Below are positions 31,986-40,550 of a DNA stretch of 42,878 nt, one piece after another. The notes under the pieces were generated by a model, which was given only the letters and a program-made list of their open reading frames with translations, was not told the DNA's origin and searched no databases. The position numbers and the translations under genes were made by a program. The DNA lies in the NCBI GenBank assembly GCA_018651745.1, contig JABIDL010000002.1, forward strand, positions 1 to 42,878, read 5' to 3'. How positions within the stretch are numbered: position 1 is the stretch's first letter; the number at the start of each line of letters is the position of its first letter. The DNA is from Candidatus Neomarinimicrobiota bacterium (GTDB taxonomy: Bacteria > Fidelibacterota > Marinisomatia > Marinisomatales > TCS55).

Positions 31986-32936
31986 ATGGTTTTCTTCTAT
32001 ATAATTGCGATTTCTTTATTGCTGAATGGATGTTCAGAAACCGATCAAGAAAAAACCTTCCAGGCATTTGCAAAGCTGGATACAAATCGTGTCGGCATTG
32101 GAGATGTTTTCCATTATAAAGTTGTAGCATCTGCGCCGAAAAATAAGATGCTTCAATTTTCTGAAATTCGAAATAACGATCCCCTTGAAATTAGACATAC
32201 ATTGTTGAATGCTGATGGAACAAGATTAGACTCCATTGATTTTACATTGGTTTTGTGGGATACGGGATTTCACTATATACCGCCAATCGAAGTAAATCTT
32301 TTGAACAGTGATTCTACTTTGGCAAAGACGATGACAATGGATAGCCTTCAGGTTTTTGTTTTTTCTTCCATTGCAGAGGATTCTCTTTTTCGCGCAGCTG
32401 GTTCGATAAATTTAAAGCCGGCTAAAAATCCGGTTTCCATTGAAAAAGGTTTCCCCTTTCGGACTCTTTTGTTCGGAACAACATTCCTGATATTATTAGT
32501 TTTGATAATTGGTATATGGTTTCGTCGTGTTCCGGATCGTTTCCGTTTCTCGGAGCCATTGCTTGATATTCCGCCGCCGGACGAGTTAGCATTAAAAAAA
32601 TTGACAGACCTTCGTAAACAGATCAAGCAAGACGGACGGACGGTAAAGGAATATTATACTTCATTGTCCCACATCATCCGAGAATATATTGAATTTAGTT
32701 TTTTTATTAAGACCCTAGAAATGACTACGGAGGATATTGTTAAGCATACTGACGATTTGCCCTTTGGATCTACGGGAAAGGGTGCGTGGAAGAATATACT
32801 TGAACGAGCGGATCTCGTGAAGTATGCAAAAGAAACCTCGGACGTTGAAACAATCCAATTGGATATTGATTCTACCCAAAAATTCATTAAAAACACGACA
32901 ATATTTTGGAAGCGAATCGATACGAGTCTTCCGTAA
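31986..32936 (+). CDS. BatD/DUF4381-like membrane lipoprotein
   Basis: This 316-aa protein starts with a lipoprotein signal (lipobox LLNGC, Cys at 16), followed by a beta-rich periplasmic domain (about 25-130), one membrane helix (about 157-178) and a cytoplasmic helical region (from about 200) with TVKEYYTSLSHIIREYIE. The layout matches the third component (BatD C-terminus or DUF4381-like) of MoxR-DUF58 clusters. The usual two transmembrane VWA proteins (BatA/BatB) and a BatC-like TPR are not encoded next; efp follows. The family call rests on context and the helical segment. Confidence 0.65.
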   Translation: MVFFYIIAISLLLNGCSETDQEKTFQAFAKLDTNRVGIGDVFHYKVVASAPKNKMLQFSEIRNNDPLEIRHTLLNADGTRLDSIDFTLVLWDTGFHYIPPIEVNLLNSDSTLAKTMTMDSLQVFVFSSIAEDSLFRAAGSINLKPAKNPVSIEKGFPFRTLLFGTTFLILLVLIIGIWFRRVPDRFRFSEPLLDIPPPDELALKKLTDLRKQIKQDGRTVKEYYTSLSHIIREYIEFSFFIKTLEMTTEDIVKHTDDLPFGSTGKGAWKNILERADLVKYAKETSDVETIQLDIDSTQKFIKNTTIFWKRIDTSLP

Positions 32937-32986: not shown

Positions 32987-33550
32987 ATGGCAACCACATC
33001 AGAAATTAAAAAGGGTGCAGTTTTACTCCACAAGGGGAAGAGAATGAAAGTGATTGAATTCCTTCACGTAAAACCTGGAAAGGGTGGAGCATTTGTTCGT
33101 ACGAAAATGAAAGATATCCAGACGGGAAAGATATTTGATGAAACGTTTAACGCCAGCGCAAAAATTGAATTGATTCGAGTAGATGCAAAAACGATGCAAT
33201 ATTTATATGCTGATGGTGAAGATTTTATCTTCATGGATAATCACACATATGAGCAACTTTTGGTTGCTGGTAATACTGTTGGCGAGGCAAAGCATTATCT
33301 CATTGCCGGTCAGGAAGCGGATCTATTGTTCGACGGGAGCGAAATTCTTGATATTCGCCTCCCTGCGCATGCAATTCTTGAGGTAACACACACGGAACCA
33401 GGCATCCGAGGAAATACGGCAACAGGCGCTACCAAACCGGCAACGCTTGAAACAGGTTATGAGGTTCAGGTGCCGTTATTTGTGGATGAAGGTGATAAAT
33501 TAAAAGTTGACACGCGAACGGGTGCGTATGTTGAACGGGCGAAATTATAA
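32987..33550 (+). CDS. efp: Translation elongation factor P
   Basis: EF-P relieves ribosome stalling at polyproline stretches. The 187-aa protein has the three-domain length, and the loop HVKPGKGGAFVRTK places a lysine (K32) at the position that is post-translationally modified in bacteria of the E. coli type. The family signature region EVTHTEPGIRGNTATGATKPA is present in the third domain. The modifying enzyme is not in the window. The gene heads the efp-accB-accC order, which is common in bacteria. Confidence 0.97.
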   Translation: MATTSEIKKGAVLLHKGKRMKVIEFLHVKPGKGGAFVRTKMKDIQTGKIFDETFNASAKIELIRVDAKTMQYLYADGEDFIFMDNHTYEQLLVAGNTVGEAKHYLIAGQEADLLFDGSEILDIRLPAHAILEVTHTEPGIRGNTATGATKPATLETGYEVQVPLFVDEGDKLKVDTRTGAYVERAKL

Positions 33551-33578: not shown

Positions 33579-34037
33579 ATGTGGAAAGATAAAGTTAAAG
33601 AAATTATTTATATCCTTGAGAATAGTGATGTTGAAGAAATCGACATAACTTTTTGGGGGAAACGGATCCGCGTATCCAAATCGGGAGGATCTTACAAAAT
33701 GTCGGGTCCCCCAGTTGAAAATGCCATTGAATTGTCGCCTGGTTTATCGGATAAACCACTGGTGCCACAATCGGAATCTCCGGCGGAATCTATAGATGGA
33801 GAGTCAATTTTATCGCCTATGCCCGGAACATTTTATCGCTCACCAACGCCGGAAGCGGACCCGTTTATTAATGAGGGCGATATTGTAAAAATGGGTCAGA
33901 CTTTATGTATTATTGAAGCGATGAAAATCATGAATGAAATTGAAGCGGAGCAGGATGGTGTCATCCAAAAAATAACGGCACAAGATGGAAATCCCGTGGA
34001 GTTTAATCAACCTCTCTTCGTGATCAAGCCATCTTGA
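33579..34037 (+). CDS. accB: Biotin carboxyl carrier protein (AccB-like)
   Basis: This 152-aa carrier bears biotin for a carboxylase. The C-terminal biotinyl domain has LSPMPGTFYRSPTPEADPF and the biotinylation motif EAMKIMNE with K116. The classical AMKLM is AMKIM here. The N-terminal half has a short helix and a charged linker, as in acetyl-CoA carboxylase carriers. It lies 28 nt after efp and 26 nt before accC. No carboxyltransferase (accA/accD) is in the window. Confidence 0.95.
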   Translation: MWKDKVKEIIYILENSDVEEIDITFWGKRIRVSKSGGSYKMSGPPVENAIELSPGLSDKPLVPQSESPAESIDGESILSPMPGTFYRSPTPEADPFINEGDIVKMGQTLCIIEAMKIMNEIEAEQDGVIQKITAQDGNPVEFNQPLFVIKPS

Positions 34038-34063: not shown

Positions 34064-35419
34064 ATGTTTAAAAAAATCCTGATAGCCAACCGCGGGGAAA
34101 TCGCCTTGCGAATTATTCGTGCTTGTCACGAGTTGGGAATAAAAACAGTTGCAGTTTATTCTACAGCTGATGAATTATCTCTCCATGTCAAATTTGCGGA
34201 TGAAGCTGTTTGTATTGGACCGCCTTCCAGCAAAGACAGTTACCTTAATATCCCTCGAATTATAGCAGCGGGAGAAATTACCAATGCGGATGCTATTCAC
34301 CCGGGATATGGATTTCTTTCGGAAAATGCTGAATTTTCTCGTATCACTGAGGACAACGATTTTACATTTATCGGACCAACGCCTGAAACGATTTTAGCAA
34401 TGGGAAATAAATCTCATGCAAAAGACACCATGAAAGCTGCCGGCATTCCCGTAATTCCAGGCAGTGACGGCATTATCAAAGACGTTTCGGAAGGAAAAAA
34501 ACTTGCGAGTGAAATGGGTTACCCGGTTATGATAAAAGCATCATCCGGCGGTGGTGGGAAGGGAATGAGGTTTGTAGAAAATGAAGCAGCATTTGACAAT
34601 GCATTTGATACTGCAAAGAATGAAGCATTGGTTTCTTTTGGAGACGGCGATGTTTATCTGGAAAAATTTCTTGTTAACCCAAGGCATATTGAAGTTCAAA
34701 TATTAGCAGATTCCAATGGAAATGTTGTTCACTTGGGAGAAAGAGAATGTACGATTCAACGGCGTCATCAAAAATTGATTGAAGAATCTCCCTCAGTTGC
34801 AGTGGATACAGAAATGCGAGCAAAGATGGGCGCCTTGGCCGTTAAAGGTACAGAAGCCGTTAATTATGTTGGCGTTGGAACGATGGAATTTTTAATGGAT
34901 AAAAATAAAGATTTTTATTTCATGGAAATGAACACTCGTATTCAAGTAGAGCATCCCGTGACGGAAATGGTAATGGGCGCCGACCTTATTAAACAACAAA
35001 TTCGTATGCATTGGGGCGAACCTCTTCCGGAATATGTAAATGATCTACAAATTCGTGGACATGCTATCGAATGCAGGATTAATGCAGAAGACCCTGCCAA
35101 GAATTTTATTCCATCTCCGGCGACCATTTCTAGTTTTCATCTCCCGGGTGGTAAAGGAGTTCGTGTGGATACCCACGCATATGCTGGATATGAAATTCCG
35201 ACTTATTATGATTCTATGATTGGCAAACTCATCGTGCATGCTTCTGATCGGGGAAAAGCCATTAACCGAATGCAAAGAGCCTTGGAAGAATGCATCATTG
35301 AAGGACCAAAAACCACGATTCCATTCCACCAAGCCATCATGAAAGATAAGCAATTTCAATCTGGCGAATTTGATACCGGATTTTTAGAAACATTTGAATA
35401 CAATCCTCCAAACAATTAA
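34064..35419 (+). CDS. accC: Biotin carboxylase subunit (AccC)
   Basis: This 451-aa ATP-grasp enzyme carboxylates the biotin of AccB using bicarbonate and ATP. It begins [20 protein letters not shown]; the biotin carboxylase N-domain motif [15 protein letters not shown], the ATP loop [10 protein letters not shown], and [19 protein letters not shown] are all present. [16 protein letters not shown] is the metal-binding region. The length (about 450) fits a single-domain bacterial AccC, not a fused pyruvate or propionyl-CoA carboxylase. Confidence 0.97.
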
Positions 35420-35430
35420 AAGAAAATTTA

Positions 35431-35817
35431 ATGACTATACCTAACGATTTAAAGTACACGAAAGATCACGAATGGGTTAAAATGCACGACGGATCTGTTA
35501 CGGTTGGCATAACCGATTATGCACAAAAAGAATTAGGAGATATCGTTTTTGTCGAATTTCCGGAATTAAATGACCACATAACAAAAGACGAACCATTTGG
35601 AACCATCGAGGCTGTAAAAACGGTTGCAGATCTTTTCGCACCTTTATCCGGCGAAATTATCAACATAAATGATGAAATTGAGGATGCTCCTGATTTCGTA
35701 AATTCCGATCCTTATGGTGACGGTTGGTTGGTAAAAATAAAAATTCCGGACGAATCTGAATGGAACCTTCTTATGTCCGCATCAGATTACGAAAACTATT
35801 TAAAGAACGATTCTTAG
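35431..35817 (+). CDS. gcvH: Glycine cleavage system H protein (lipoyl carrier)
   Basis: GcvH is the lipoate-bearing shuttle of the glycine cleavage complex. The 128-aa protein has DHEWVKMHDGSVTVGITDYA, the lipoylation motif IEAVKTVADLFAPLSGE with K63, and a C-terminal DGWLVKIKI strand. The gcvT, gcvP and lpd genes are not nearby. It sits between accC and a GGGP-synthase-like gene, an unusual location. A lipoate-relay role, as known for some bacterial GcvH proteins, is possible but untested. Confidence 0.96.
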   Translation: MTIPNDLKYTKDHEWVKMHDGSVTVGITDYAQKELGDIVFVEFPELNDHITKDEPFGTIEAVKTVADLFAPLSGEIININDEIEDAPDFVNSDPYGDGWLVKIKIPDESEWNLLMSASDYENYLKNDS

Positions 35818-35826
35818 GATATTTTA

Positions 35827-36579
35827 ATGAACTCATCTGTTTTCAAAACCTTATTAAAAACTGCTGAAAAACGCGGCGCTTGCTACATTATCCTTCTTGA
35901 TCCTGATAGGAAGAATGAACATACATTAGAAGCAAGATTGAAGGCGGCTCATGACGCTGGCGTAGATGCTATTTTTGTCGGTGGAAGTTTGATGATGGAT
36001 GGTAAATATCATGAGCGGATCAAACGGATTAAAGAATCTTCAACCGTACCGGTCATTTTTTTCCCGGGCGGCGCAAATCAGTTGAATGAACATTTTGACG
36101 CCATCCTATTTACAGCAGTTTTATCCGGGAGGAATCCTCATTACTTGATTGGAGAGCAAGTGATTGCAGCGCCGATTGTTAAAGATCTTGGATTGGAAGT
36201 CATCCCGACAAGTTATTTACTGTTTGATGGAGGGGCACATTCTACCGTTGAATTTATGAGTGGCACCCAACCTTTACCGCTGCATCGTCCTGATATTGCG
36301 GTTGCACATGCTTTGGCATCAGAATATTTAGGCAAAAAATTAATTTATCTTGAAGCGGGTAGCGGAGCGCATGAATCTGTTCCGGATGAAACCATTAAAC
36401 GCATATGCAGTCAGGTGTCTGTTCCAGTTATTGTTGGAGGTGGTATCAAAACGCCTGAAGATGCACGTCGAAAAGTTGAAGCAGGTGCAACCTTTATTGT
36501 TACCGGAACAGCTGTAGAAGAAAGTGATTCATCAGATTTGATGCAAGCTTTTTCAAATGCTGTTCATGTAAAGGAGTAA
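35827..36579 (+). CDS. Geranylgeranylglyceryl/heptaprenylglyceryl phosphate synthase family protein
   Basis: This TIM-barrel prenyltransferase family joins glycerol-1-phosphate to a long prenyl diphosphate, the first committed step of archaeal ether lipids; bacterial members also exist (PcrB in Firmicutes and group II in Bacteroidetes). The 250-aa protein has ILLDPDRKN at 22-30, FVGGSLMM at 50-57, PVIFFPGGANQL, TAVLSGRNPHYLIGEQ, YLEAGSGA at 174-181 and VGGGIKTPEDA at 203-213. The length and the GRNPHYLIGEQ motif match group II. No G1P dehydrogenase or second ether-forming enzyme is nearby, so the product cannot be judged here. Confidence 0.88.
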   Translation: MNSSVFKTLLKTAEKRGACYIILLDPDRKNEHTLEARLKAAHDAGVDAIFVGGSLMMDGKYHERIKRIKESSTVPVIFFPGGANQLNEHFDAILFTAVLSGRNPHYLIGEQVIAAPIVKDLGLEVIPTSYLLFDGGAHSTVEFMSGTQPLPLHRPDIAVAHALASEYLGKKLIYLEAGSGAHESVPDETIKRICSQVSVPVIVGGGIKTPEDARRKVEAGATFIVTGTAVEESDSSDLMQAFSNAVHVKE

Positions 36580-36582
36580 ACA

Positions 36583-37161
36583 ATGAACAAACGTGAAGAA
36601 ATAATTCGGCAATTAGAAGCAAGTGCTCAGGTTAAACAAGAAATGGTTTCTCTTTGTGCGGATTCTATAGAAATGAGCGCCACTCTTTTAATTTCAGCCT
36701 TGAAAGACGGACATAAAGTGTTGTGGGTTGGAAATGGTGGTAGCGCCGGACAAGCACAGCATTTATCTACAGAACTTATTGGCGGTCTTAGAGATCACAC
36801 GTGGAAAGGATCTCCATCCATTTCTCTTACAGTTGATTCTTCCTTTATTACAGCATGGGCAAATGATGTCGGATTTGACTCAGTATTTTCCCAGCAAGTT
36901 GGTGCTTTAGGTATGGCTGGAGATGTGTTGGTTGCCATTTCAACCAGTGGGAATTCTGTAAACGTGATTGAAGCCGTTAAAAAAGCACAAACCATCGGTA
37001 TGAAAGTAATCGTGTTTACAGGGAATTCCGGCGGATTCTTAAAACCAATGGGAGACGTTGTTATTTCAATTCCAAGTGATGATTGTCAGCGTATTCAAGA
37101 GGGACATATTCTCGCGGGACACATCATGTGCGAACTCGTTGAGATGGAGTTCATACAATAA
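36583..37161 (+). CDS. Phosphoheptose isomerase-like SIS protein (GmhA family)
   Basis: GmhA isomerises sedoheptulose 7-phosphate to manno-heptose 7-phosphate for lipopolysaccharide core synthesis. The 192-aa SIS protein has WVGNGGSAGQAQHLSTELIG (47-66) with the likely metal ligands H60 and E64, SISLTVDSSF, AISTSGNSVNVIEA, and PSDDCQRIQEGHILAGHIMC with H180. These match GmhA rather than DnaA-initiator-associating DiaA, but the close relatives are hard to separate. Other heptose genes (hldE, gmhB) are not seen in the window. Confidence 0.83.
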   Translation: MNKREEIIRQLEASAQVKQEMVSLCADSIEMSATLLISALKDGHKVLWVGNGGSAGQAQHLSTELIGGLRDHTWKGSPSISLTVDSSFITAWANDVGFDSVFSQQVGALGMAGDVLVAISTSGNSVNVIEAVKKAQTIGMKVIVFTGNSGGFLKPMGDVVISIPSDDCQRIQEGHILAGHIMCELVEMEFIQ

Positions 37162-37168
37162 ACGATTC

Positions 37169-38062
37169 GTGGAAACACATATCCAGGATTATATCACCAT
37201 GATCCAGGTCGAAAAAAACCTGGCAATCAAAACAGTGGAAGCATACAAAAGAGATATTGGTCGGTATTTAAAGTTTCTTGAAGAGGAACAAAATGTTACT
37301 TCCATTTTGCGAGTAAAGGATGATGAAATTAGAGCATTTATAAGAGTTCTTTCCGATTTGAAACTTGCTCCATCAACGCTTCACCGAAATTTTTCTGCTA
37401 TCCGCTCGTACCATTCTTTTCTTGTCGAGTCCGAACTAACCAAGCATAATCCTGCACAATTATTAGATCCCCCCCGAATGACCAAAAAACTTCCTGATGT
37501 TTTAACTGCAAATGAAATTGAATCCATCATCAATGCAGTGACGGAAGATTCGTCGTCGTATCTCCGTGATAAATCAATGTTAGAAATGCTTTATTCTACA
37601 GGGTTACGGGTGTCGGAATTATGCGAACTTGAATTGGTAGATATTCAGAATAACTACGGGGTTCTTCGTATAAAGGGAAAAGGAAACAAGGAACGTTTGG
37701 TTCCGATTGGAAGAAATGCCGTAGATATGCTTGAAGAATACCTAAAAAACCTGAGAAAAAAATTGGGTGAAAAAAAGTTGGATAAAGGAAAAATATTTTT
37801 AAGCCTAAATGGTCGCCCACTTACCCGTGCCGCTGTTTGGCAAATACTAAAAAAATGGACGGCCCAGGCGGGAATTACAAAGAATATAAGTCCCCACACA
37901 TTCCGCCATTCGTTTGCGACGCATTTATTGGAAGGCGGTGCAGATCTTCGCGCCATTCAGGAAATGCTTGGACATGAGAGCATTACCACAACCGAATTAT
38001 ACACGCATTTGGACCGACAATATTTAGCTGAAGTTCATAAAAAATTCCATCCGAGGTGGTAA
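37169..38062 (+). CDS. XerC/XerD-type tyrosine recombinase
   Basis: This 297-aa tyrosine recombinase has the size and end motif (HKKFHPRW) of the Xer proteins that resolve chromosome dimers. The N-terminal SAM-like core-binding domain includes MIQVEKNLAIKTVEAYKRDI. The catalytic residues are R147, K171, H243, R246, H269 and nucleophile Y278 (TTTELYTHLDRQYL). The GTG at 37169 is preferred: it lies 7 nt after the gmhA-like stop and gives the correct length. Nothing suggests a phage integrase or an IntI-specific insertion. XerC or XerD cannot be decided. Confidence 0.9.
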   Translation: METHIQDYITMIQVEKNLAIKTVEAYKRDIGRYLKFLEEEQNVTSILRVKDDEIRAFIRVLSDLKLAPSTLHRNFSAIRSYHSFLVESELTKHNPAQLLDPPRMTKKLPDVLTANEIESIINAVTEDSSSYLRDKSMLEMLYSTGLRVSELCELELVDIQNNYGVLRIKGKGNKERLVPIGRNAVDMLEEYLKNLRKKLGEKKLDKGKIFLSLNGRPLTRAAVWQILKKWTAQAGITKNISPHTFRHSFATHLLEGGADLRAIQEMLGHESITTTELYTHLDRQYLAEVHKKFHPRW

Positions 38063-38713: not shown

Positions 38714-38847
38714 TGACCGGACATTTGTTTAGGAGAATTATTCCAAAACGGCATCAGACGTCCCGATCTCTATTATGGACTGTGATCGTTTTACTTGCTG
38801 TTCTATTTTTAATCATGTATCTGAACGGCGTCAGTTTAGGCAGGTAA
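38713..38847 (+). CDS. Small single-helix membrane protein, unknown
   Basis: This 44-codon gene starts at an ATG overlapping the previous stop (TAATG) and ends 2 nt before the FTCD start. It encodes a basic N-terminus (MTGHLFRRIIPKRHQTSR) and one hydrophobic helix (about 20-37). The overlaps on both sides suggest a real, translationally coupled gene. I do not recognise it. It could be an accessory to the M50 protease or an unrelated small membrane protein. Confidence 0.5.
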   Translation: MTGHLFRRIIPKRHQTSRSLLWTVIVLLAVLFLIMYLNGVSLGR

Positions 38848-38849
38848 AA

Positions 38850-40550
38850 ATGAAACTGATTGAATGTGTACCCAATTTTAGCGAAGGGCGTGACCTTAAT
38901 AAAATCAAAATTATTACCGATGCAATTATAAACGTAGCGGGTATTACAGTTTTAGATGTGGATCCGGGTGAAGATACAAATCGTACCGTTGTTACGATTG
39001 TCGGGGAACCGGAAGCTGTCGCCGAAGCTGCATTTATTGGAATTCAATCGGCAGCAAACGTGTTGGATATGAGGTCTCACACCGGTGCACATGCACGTAT
39101 GGGCGCTACAGATGTATGCCCATTTATTCCTATTTCTGAGGTCACCATGGATGAATGTATTGAAGTTTCCAAACACGTTGGCGCTCGTGTTGGAAACGAG
39201 TTGGGTATTCCAATTTATTTATACGAGAAATCAGCCCAAAAAGTGGAACGAGGAAATTTAGCAACCGTCCGTCAGGGGGAATACGAAGGATTAGAAAAAA
39301 AGTTAAAAAATCCTGAATGGAAACCGGATTATGGTCCTGCAGACTTTAACCCAAAAACTGGGGCAACAGCAGTCGGTGCGCGGGAATTCCTGATTGCATA
39401 CAATATCAATTTAAATACTAAGGATAAGAGACTTGCTACGGATATTGCATTTGAACTTCGTGAAAAAGGACGAAGCAAACGGTTTCCAAATCCTCTCTCA
39501 AAAAATTTATTGGATGGAGAAATCGTTCGAAAAGATAACGGGAAACCTGTAAAAATCCCCGGGATGTTTAAGAATGTAAAAGCTGTCGGGTGGATTATTG
39601 AATCGTATCACCGAGCTCAAATATCCATTAATTTTACCAATTATAAACAATCTCCTGTGCACGAAGTATTTGACGCTGCATGTACGTTAGCAAATGAAAG
39701 GGGACTTAGAGTAACGGGGAGTGAACTTGTTGGGCTTATTCCGATGGCTGCGGTAAAAGAAGCGGGGATCCATTATTTAAAAAAACAGGGGCATACACCG
39801 GGTGTTCCTGAATCAGAAATTATTGAAACGGCTATCCAGTCGTTGGGGTTGCACGATGTTGCACACTTTGATCCGGAAGAAAAAATAATTGAATATGCTA
39901 TTCAAAATGAGGAGGCAAATCTCATGAATTCAACGATGAACGAATTTGTGGAGGAATTATCAACCAATAGCCCTGCGCCGGGTGGTGGTAGTGTCGCTGC
40001 TTTGGCAGGAAGTTTGGCCGCGGGACTCGCTGCAATGGTCTCAGCGCTTACCCATGAGAAAAAAGGATTCGAACTGACTAAAGATGAAATGGAATCCATT
40101 GGGCTTGAAGCGCAACATTTAAAAGATCGGTTCATTGCACTTGTGGATGAAGATACGTCAGCCTTTAATCAAATGATGGATGCCGGGCGACTGCCAAGCA
40201 AAACAGAAACAGAAAAATCTGATAAAAAATCAGCAATGGAAAAAGCCGCAAAAAACGGCGTCAATATCCCGATGGAAACGGCTGAATCAGCATTAAAAAT
40301 TCTAGAAATGACCGCTGTACTTGTGGAAAAAGGAAACCCGAATTCGGTAAGCGATGCCGGAGTAGCAGCCGAAATGGCACACGGTGCAGTTCGAGGTGGA
40401 ATTATGAATGTACGGATCAATCTTTCCGGTATTGGTGATCAGGAATTCGTGAAGGAAGCGATCGAAAAATCTGAAACACTTATACGCAAAGCAGATTCAC
40501 TGCAAGATGAAATTTATTCAAAGACTATGAATACTATTCAATCATCCTAA
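38850..40550 (+). CDS. Bifunctional glutamate formimidoyltransferase/formimidoyl-THF cyclodeaminase
   Basis: The N-terminal part (about residues 1-330) is formimidoyltransferase: KLIECVPNFSEGRD at the start and SHTGAHARMGATDVCPFI with H77/H81. The C-terminal part (about 359-560) is a cyclodeaminase with NSPAPGGGSVAALAGSLAAG. The fusion of 566 aa is like the FTCD of animals and Bacteroidetes. It would move a formimino group from formimidoglutamate to THF and release ammonia, linking histidine breakdown to folate. No hutH, hutU or hutI is adjacent. The ATG at 38850 was chosen over upstream starts that overlap the small membrane gene. Confidence 0.92.
   Translation: MKLIECVPNFSEGRDLNKIKIITDAIINVAGITVLDVDPGEDTNRTVVTIVGEPEAVAEAAFIGIQSAANVLDMRSHTGAHARMGATDVCPFIPISEVTMDECIEVSKHVGARVGNELGIPIYLYEKSAQKVERGNLATVRQGEYEGLEKKLKNPEWKPDYGPADFNPKTGATAVGAREFLIAYNINLNTKDKRLATDIAFELREKGRSKRFPNPLSKNLLDGEIVRKDNGKPVKIPGMFKNVKAVGWIIESYHRAQISINFTNYKQSPVHEVFDAACTLANERGLRVTGSELVGLIPMAAVKEAGIHYLKKQGHTPGVPESEIIETAIQSLGLHDVAHFDPEEKIIEYAIQNEEANLMNSTMNEFVEELSTNSPAPGGGSVAALAGSLAAGLAAMVSALTHEKKGFELTKDEMESIGLEAQHLKDRFIALVDEDTSAFNQMMDAGRLPSKTETEKSDKKSAMEKAAKNGVNIPMETAESALKILEMTAVLVEKGNPNSVSDAGVAAEMAHGAVRGGIMNVRINLSGIGDQEFVKEAIEKSETLIRKADSLQDEIYSKTMNTIQSS

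Follow-up and report, generated by a model that had tools for sequence, protein, structure and literature searches.

Does the open reading frame (ORF) at positions 35827 to 36579 of this bacterial contig encode a true enzyme of archaeal-type ether-lipid synthesis, and could its host build mixed membranes with it? The first-pass annotation had read this ORF as a group II geranylgeranylglyceryl phosphate synthase (GGGPS) with all of the characteristic motifs of its family, in a bacterium, and had added that parts of an archaeal ether-lipid pathway have been proposed for bacteria of the FCB superphylum. It had also suggested mixed membranes, provided that G1P dehydrogenase (G1PDH) and DGGGP synthase (DGGGPS) are encoded too. 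The window, by which we mean the whole stretch of 42,878 nucleotides that was analysed, is one contig (C2) of a Candidatus Neomarinimicrobiota MAG of 1.86 Mb in 43 contigs, which is about 96% complete. The current NCBI name of the phylum is Fidelibacterota, within the FCB group, and we take it to be the SAR406/Marinimicrobia group. In named genomes the GGGPS has its nearest relatives at 83, 80 and 61% identity, each in a Candidatus Neomarinimicrobiota MAG, which together with the NCBI taxonomy bears out the FCB host. The ORF lies exactly where it had been placed, on the forward strand, and starts with ATG. In a profile search of the 1.86 Mb genome it is the only match to PF01884 at E ≤ 0.001.

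35827..36579, forward strand: GGGPS, group II, 250 aa (profile scores, PDB matches, predicted fold, conserved residues)

The ORF encodes a group II GGGPS, as judged from profile scores, closest solved structures, predicted fold and active-site residues, and in this the earlier reading was right. It passes the NCBIfam models NF003198 (282.1 bits, cut-off 247) and TIGR01769 (200.2 bits, cut-off 161.55) and scores 139.9 bits with the Pfam model PF01884 (cut-off 23.9), so these profile matches are far above chance level. The group I models, sorted into their group partly by the organisms named in them, stay far under their cut-offs (TIGR04146, 48.2 of 320; TIGR04147, 27.7 of 300; the heptaprenylglyceryl phosphate synthase model NF003197, 29.2 bits against 260). 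The closest solved sequences are those of F. johnsoniae (173 bits) and M. thermautotrophicus (172 bits), both group II enzymes, whereas the solved group I sequences reach at most 36.8 bits (PcrB) and 31.5 bits (the A. fulgidus enzyme). The AlphaFold2 model (mean pLDDT 87.7, pTM 0.88) predicts a modified TIM barrel nearest to the solved group II structures. A structure search with this model returned group II GGGPS chains in PDB rows 1 to 27, with TM over the query of 0.77-0.92, and group I chains from row 28 on (PcrB and A. fulgidus GGGPS, 0.70-0.77). A group I or PcrB identity is ruled out by the group I model scores and this ranking.

The active-site residues of group II enzymes and their catalytic roles are named in PMC9385802, and we carried them over ourselves by alignment with the sequences of PDB chains. 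They map to D25, S54, Y130, Y174 and E176. The ORF has all five, and none of them varies among the 24 sequences of the phylum that were aligned. T228 is the threonine of the last phosphate-binding loop, a position held by T or N elsewhere in the phylum. The residues Y134/Y178/E180 are labelled as M. thermautotrophicus in PMC9385802, but their numbering in our alignment fits the F. johnsoniae chain. The codons concerned, all on the forward strand and placed by alignment together with PMC9385802 (F143 by alignment), are as follows.

35899..35901, forward strand: codon of D25, predicted Mg2+/diphosphate-binding aspartate (24/24 aligned sequences)
35986..35988, forward strand: codon of S54, possible Mg2+ ligand
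36082..36084, forward strand: codon of L86, at the proposed group II chain-length limiter position
36214..36216, forward strand: codon of Y130, predicted glycerol-phosphate stereospecificity residue
36253..36255, forward strand: codon of F143, at the aromatic-anchor position of hexameric group II enzymes
36346..36354, forward strand: codons of Y174-L175-E176 (in YLEAGSGA), predicted catalytic Tyr and Glu

The limiter proposed for group II is I90 in the F. johnsoniae enzyme and V86 in that of M. thermautotrophicus (PMC9385802). Since L86 is aliphatic like these two, a C20 chain is the likely donor, and the protein should have GGGPS activity with C20 specificity. F143 aligns with the hexamer anchor of the M. 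thermautotrophicus enzyme, which we take to be W141; this anchor is absent from some group II members. An aromatic residue at this place supports hexamers in group II enzymes (PMC9385802, PMC4244643).

The gene lies in a row of bacterial genes on the forward strand, 9 bases after one neighbour and 3 bases before the next. These were named from NCBIfam matches (Pfam as well for the SIS-domain protein) and serve as conserved context only.

32987..33550, forward strand: elongation factor P (EFP)
33579..34037, forward strand: accB
34064..35419, forward strand: accC
35431..35817, forward strand: gcvH, upstream with a 9-base gap
36583..37161, forward strand: SIS-domain protein, GmhA-like (under the GmhA cut-offs), downstream with a 3-base gap
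37172..38062, forward strand: xerD-like tyrosine recombinase

Loci were compared across the phylum for the 30 best-scoring matches of each gene, with 3 named relatives added in the case of GGGPS. Of the 33 GGGPS loci, 29 have GcvH or GcvPA upstream, the other four having no matched neighbour or a contig edge there, and 32 have GmhA-like or XerD downstream. In other orders and classes the block runs EFP-AccB-AccC-GcvH-(GcvPA)-GGGPS-(GmhA)-XerD-S2P-like, often with FtcD-MutL. Among the 30 DGGGPS loci, DnaE lies downstream of the gene in 26 and PrmC precedes it in 18. The trees of the two proteins were built for 31 genomes hand-picked among those with coordinates for both genes, with family f16 in neither tree. 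Their patristic distances correlate with r = 0.80, and none of 5000 permutations gave so high a value. Each tree sets apart the order of this genome, the remaining orders of its class and the rest of the phylum, with local supports of 0.86-1.00. The finer branching inside the order is not identical, and neither tree shows family f1 as a single clade. Given the conserved loci and the matching trees, GGGPS and DGGGPS look old in the phylum, and it is most likely that both were present in the ancestor of the sampled classes and were inherited vertically.

The GGGPS family is best known from archaea, which would suit a contaminated MAG or a gene recently acquired from an archaeon. However, the gene sits inside an ordinary bacterial block (EFP-accBC-gcvH-GGGPS-gmhA-xerD) that recurs in other orders and classes, and the GGGPS tree follows the higher taxonomy of the phylum. 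We reject contamination and recent transfer on this synteny and these trees, and would give them a negligible chance.

Some further features of the locus can be recorded here. GcvPA, whose identity was verified at one GGGPS locus, is the nearest matched upstream gene in 16 of the 33 GGGPS loci; it is missing at 35431-35827 of the window, where GcvH comes next instead. At 38775-40550 the window encodes a 591-aa fusion of glutamate formimidoyltransferase with a cyclohydrolase-like domain; the FtcD locus of L127 has a 345-aa protein matching FtcD only, and L126 has one of equal length. The 316-aa protein at 31986-32936 has no Pfam match at E ≤ 0.001; it recurs in L120, L123 and L016 at the same place, next to the genes for DUF58 and EFP, with 31-55% identity.

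The partner genes that a mixed membrane would call for are partly present. There are three UbiA-family genes in the genome, for a heme O synthase (C11), a MenA-like protein (C37) and a DGGGPS-like protein (C22:32026-32844). The last has one strong PDB match, the M. jannaschii DGGGPS 6m31 (95.2 bits, E 4.5e-26), followed by a chlorophyll synthase at 37.6 bits. It keeps the six motif residues named in PMC9385802 (N57/D61/D65 and D176/D179/D183), and so has the two aspartate motifs of a DGGGP synthase, with scores below the curated NCBIfam cut-offs (194.9 of 269; 190.3 of 296). The cut-off of the model NF009523 is passed by no genome of the phylum and by none of 14 control genomes, archaea included. 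A protein of the geranylgeranyl reductase (GGR) family on C30 scores 220 bits with TIGR02032 (cut-off 158.8, passed), and among PDB entries it matches best the digeranylgeranylglycerophospholipid reductase 3oz2, at 132 bits, with 89 bits for the next entry. Its sequence reads YFWIFP, eight residues, GLG, which presumably fits the reductase motif YxWxFPx7-8GxG. It also matches the menaquinone reductase model MenJ at 127 bits against 141 bits for the best lipid-reductase model, both below cut-off, and because MenJ is matched nearly as well the lipid substrate of this GGR is putative. As a side observation, a MenA-like protein at L020:5038-6648 has about 190 extra N-terminal residues that are covered by no MenA model, and its gene is followed by a putative UbiE/MenG (judged by eye).

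Two polyprenyl synthases are encoded, on C28 and C3. The C28 synthase combines an uninserted DDIMD motif with F at its -5 position, which is the pattern of archaeal type-I GGPP synthases (PMC9385802); its best PDB match is 6kd7, a 'polyprenyl synthetase', and the next two are named GGPP synthase (1wy0, 5jfq). We thus class it as a type-I-like GGPP synthase, with a product length suggested by the limiter residue. The C3 synthase has A at -5, and its best model match is a heptaprenyl synthase. The bacterial-pathway genes PlsY and GpsA are both present as well. The GGGPS, DGGGPS and GGR genes are on different contigs.

A G1P dehydrogenase (EgsA/AraM) was searched for in this roughly 96% complete genome with the profiles PF13685 and NF002022, and none was found. 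PF13685 has matches in 27 of the 41 genomes searched, this genome and its two genus-mates not among them, and since it also matches 13 of the 14 control genomes it is a broad model. Its three best matches were rejected as G1PDH, being AroB (L002) and two alcohol-dehydrogenase-like proteins (L003, L004). The narrower NF002022 matches 8 of the 14 controls. At E ≤ 1e-15 it finds nothing in 236 of 245 genomes of the phylum, and in the other nine no match is over its cut-off. Seven of these nine were scanned and six match only the G1PDH model, while L113 was rejected as its scan gives glycerol dehydrogenase. The six (L105, L107-L110 and L112) are G1PDH-like proteins that match only NF002022 at E ≤ 1e-20, below its cut-off, and four of them have 457-470 aa, longer than the 350 positions of the model.

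The proposal of mixed membranes is thus partly supported, with DGGGPS-like and GGR-family genes present and G1PDH not found; such membranes may occur in this organism. The absence of any G1P-forming enzyme, combined with a lack of activity, had been named as grounds for giving up the proposal, and the former agrees with our failure to find G1PDH by these searches. Missing G1PDH alone does not refute it, because Cloacimonetes MAGs are also without this enzyme and their GGGPS is active, making GGGP in vitro from G1P and from G3P (PMC7852524).

A profile search for each gene in 245 genomes of the phylum, with the 14 controls beside them, gave GGGPS matches in 156, DGGGPS matches in 182 (NF009523, E ≤ 1e-15) and GGR matches in 162 (TIGR02032, E ≤ 1e-30). 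From these we dropped two weak GGGPS matches (G077 and G197, E 9.4e-5 and 6.6e-5) and two weak DGGGPS matches (G239 and G240, E 1.0e-16 and 5.4e-17) before counting combinations. All three genes are then found together in 128 genomes, none of them in 52 and a mixture in 65, with pairwise phi of 0.59-0.63, the counts being of related genomes and not of independent events. The DGGGPS and GGR thresholds are loose, since they give matches in 10 of the 14 controls (E. coli and Corynebacterium among them) and in 8 of the 14 (with E. coli, Synechococcus and Corynebacterium), respectively. In a stricter count DGGGPS was cut at about 1e-45, a value read off the match table by eye, and GGR at its curated cut-off, which removed 26 DGGGPS and two GGR rows. 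This left 112 genomes with all three genes, 53 with none and 80 with a mixture (phi 0.47-0.59). Most of the shift comes from family f16, where DGGGPS is then kept in 1 of 23 genomes and GGGPS is found in 15 of 23. The DGGGPS-model matches of these genomes (G153-G175) lie mostly between 1e-33 and 1e-45, and may be a divergent DGGGPS or another UbiA protein.

In family f1, genera g1-g4 (17 genomes) have GGGPS, DGGGPS and GGR in 15, 17 and 15 genomes, and g5-g8 (23 genomes) in 0, 0 and 1. Genus g22 of family f15 (24 genomes of 0.4-1.0 Mb) has none of the three. Genome reduction may explain the joint absence in f15; it fits f1 less, because four g6 genomes of 1.9-2.5 Mb that are 93-96% complete (G007, G014, G019, G024) are also without the genes. 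We count at least two joint absences, since they fall in two different families. In f1 g5-g8, genomes including G006 and G016 have kept other UbiA genes.

There are also genera in which the set is incomplete. Among the 10 genomes of g63 in family f23, GGGPS is found in none, either with the general profile or with one built from the GGGPS of the phylum itself, DGGGPS is found in 8 and GGR in 6. The one g63 DGGGPS that we examined carries both motifs, with model scores of 204 and 186 bits that resemble those of this genome. The four genomes of g40 in f16 count 0, 4 and 4 for the three genes, with weak DGGGPS matches (1.5e-35 to 1.7e-39) that make g40 an uncertain case of DGGGPS without GGGPS. 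In the two g63 genomes examined the DGGGPS gene (L115:4719-5708, L116:5108-6097) is outside the usual PrmC-DnaE locus. The reductases are of two types (L117:5667-6935, L118:4492-5676 and L054:1228-2415 as against L068:6653-7867). The g63 reductase lies beside the same transporter and dinG-like genes as the GGR of this genome, yet has 24-25% identity to it. The reductases of G004 and G054 match a Thermoplasma-type lipid reductase model best, with no MenJ match at E ≤ 1e-20, and the GGRs of this genome and G161 differ from that type in matching MenJ.

Taking all of this together, the protein is probably a real ether-lipid enzyme that contributes to mixed membranes. The explanation that we favour, and think fairly likely to be correct, is that a working group II GGGPS feeds DGGGPS, and that bacterial CDP-lipid and head-group enzymes and GGR then complete an archaeol-like phospholipid beside the fatty-acyl lipids. 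Following the mechanism described in PMC9385802, D25 would hold the Mg2+ on which GGPP ionises, and E176 would polarise the C-3 hydroxyl of glycerol phosphate for its attack on C-1 of GGPP, giving GGGP. The DGGGP synthase of UbiA type, whose gene is on another contig, would then prenylate GGGP; bacterial enzymes would activate the product and attach its head groups, and GGR would saturate its chains to yield the archaeol-like phospholipid. With PlsY and GpsA present, this lipid would occur beside ordinary fatty-acyl lipids. The glycerol phosphate might be G1P from a route not yet known, or G3P; a route to G1P without G1PDH has been argued to exist in E. coli (PMC7852524, PMC13400652). We infer the order of these steps, the use in the membrane and the source of the glycerol phosphate from the genes.

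The choice between G1P and G3P is where the favoured reading meets its closest competitor. A true GGGPS could work on G3P in the cell, giving lipids of bacterial stereochemistry and a membrane that is not heterochiral. GpsA is present and G1PDH was not found, the Cloacimonetes GGGPS took G3P in vitro (PMC7852524), and DGGGPS is reported to take G3P-based GGGP too (PMC9385802, PMC4244643). Set against this, the residues proposed for G1P stereospecificity (Y130, Y174 and E176) do not vary in any of the 24 aligned sequences, and G1P-based archaeal lipid was still formed in an engineered E. coli that has no G1PDH (PMC7852524, PMC13400652). We regard the use of G3P as quite possible, if somewhat less than even in our estimate.

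The three genes might also serve no single lipid pathway, the GGGPS making a minor single-chain product like PcrB in Bacillus, the UbiA protein using another acceptor and the GGR acting on menaquinone. This would agree with the unlinked genes, the weak UbiA match in f16, the MenJ score of the GGR (127 bits), the preference of the G004/G054 type for the Thermoplasma-type model at the expense of MenJ, and g63, which keeps DGGGPS and GGR without GGGPS. It agrees poorly with the joint absence in f1 g5-g8 (one GGR apart) and f15 g22, though such g5-g8 genomes as G006 and G016 retain other UbiA genes, and with a DGGGPS that matches the M. jannaschii DGGGPS far above other UbiA structures, and we find it unlikely. 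The authors of PMC6431249 raised the possibility that the enzymes run backwards and degrade archaeal lipids on which the cell feeds, and the missing G1PDH would suit it. The genome, however, encodes an archaeal-type GGPP synthase, forward activity is published for the Cloacimonetes enzymes (PMC7852524), and in the literature covered we found no demonstration of ether cleavage by reversal, so that breakdown seems very improbable to us.

If the favoured forward pathway is extended to the whole phylum, its ancestor would have had mixed membranes made by GGGPS, DGGGPS and GGR, with G1P from an unfamiliar route or with G3P. The set would then have been lost whole in at least two lineages (f1 g5-g8 and f15 g22), and g63, and perhaps g40, would have replaced or by-passed GGGPS while keeping DGGGPS. 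We offer this history tentatively and put it below even chances. Should it be true, the DGGGPS of g63 would imply either an enzyme not yet known for the first ether bond or an acceptor new to DGGGPS.

Comparison with known systems helps to place the enzyme. The group IIb GGGPS of F. johnsoniae (PDB 4jej) resembles it in fold (TM 0.89, 42% identity in the structural alignment), catalytic residues and aliphatic limiter, but belongs to another phylum. Bacillus PcrB (group Ib) shares the superfamily and the barrel (TM about 0.75), whereas identity to the B. subtilis chains is 22-24% and the PcrB model gives 29 bits against 260; PcrB uses a C35 donor (PMC9385802), and Bacillus has the G1PDH AraM (PMC13400652). 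Closest in gene content are the Candidatus Cloacimonetes genomes of PMC7852524, with GGGPS, DGGGPS, GGR, prenyl synthases and the bacterial G3P pathway and without G1PDH. GGGPS and DGGGPS adjoin there, while here they are on different contigs, each in its own conserved neighbourhood. The activity of the Cloacimonetes enzymes was measured, their GGGPS and DGGGPS giving archaeal-type lipid in an E. coli strain optimised for GGPP and G1P (PMC7852524), whereas the Neomarinimicrobiota pathway is predicted from its genes.

The kind of gene is not new, as GGGPS and DGGGPS in Marinimicrobia are already reported: PMC6431249 finds both in all 12 FCB phyla surveyed, with Candidatus Marinimicrobia listed among them in its table, and G1PDH only in Fibrobacteres and Cloacimonetes. 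That survey gives presence per phylum, whereas our 245 genomes add joint absences, neighbourhoods and exceptions, together with the nine genomes with an NF002022 match, of which six of seven scanned match only the G1PDH model. Marinimicrobia are not named in the main text of PMC7852524 (as distinct from its figures and supplements), nor is the phylum in that of PMC11868695, and in the parts covered of PMC7203096, which mentions Marinimicrobia, the term 'geranylgeranylglyceryl' was not found. In the main texts of the open papers that we searched, no earlier description was found of the 245-genome profile, the joint absences, the conserved loci, or a genus with DGGGPS and no GGGPS.

Our addition lies in the apparent age of the core genes within the phylum, seen in their fixed loci and matching trees, and in their distribution in f1, where four genera have the set together and four others, save for a single reductase match, have none of it. 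This offers related genera that differ in the set for a comparison of lipids. The finding sharpens the question of where G1P comes from in genomes that encode no G1P dehydrogenase. A natural archaeal-type lipid pathway beside the bacterial one in a living bacterium would bear on the 'lipid divide' and on early membranes.
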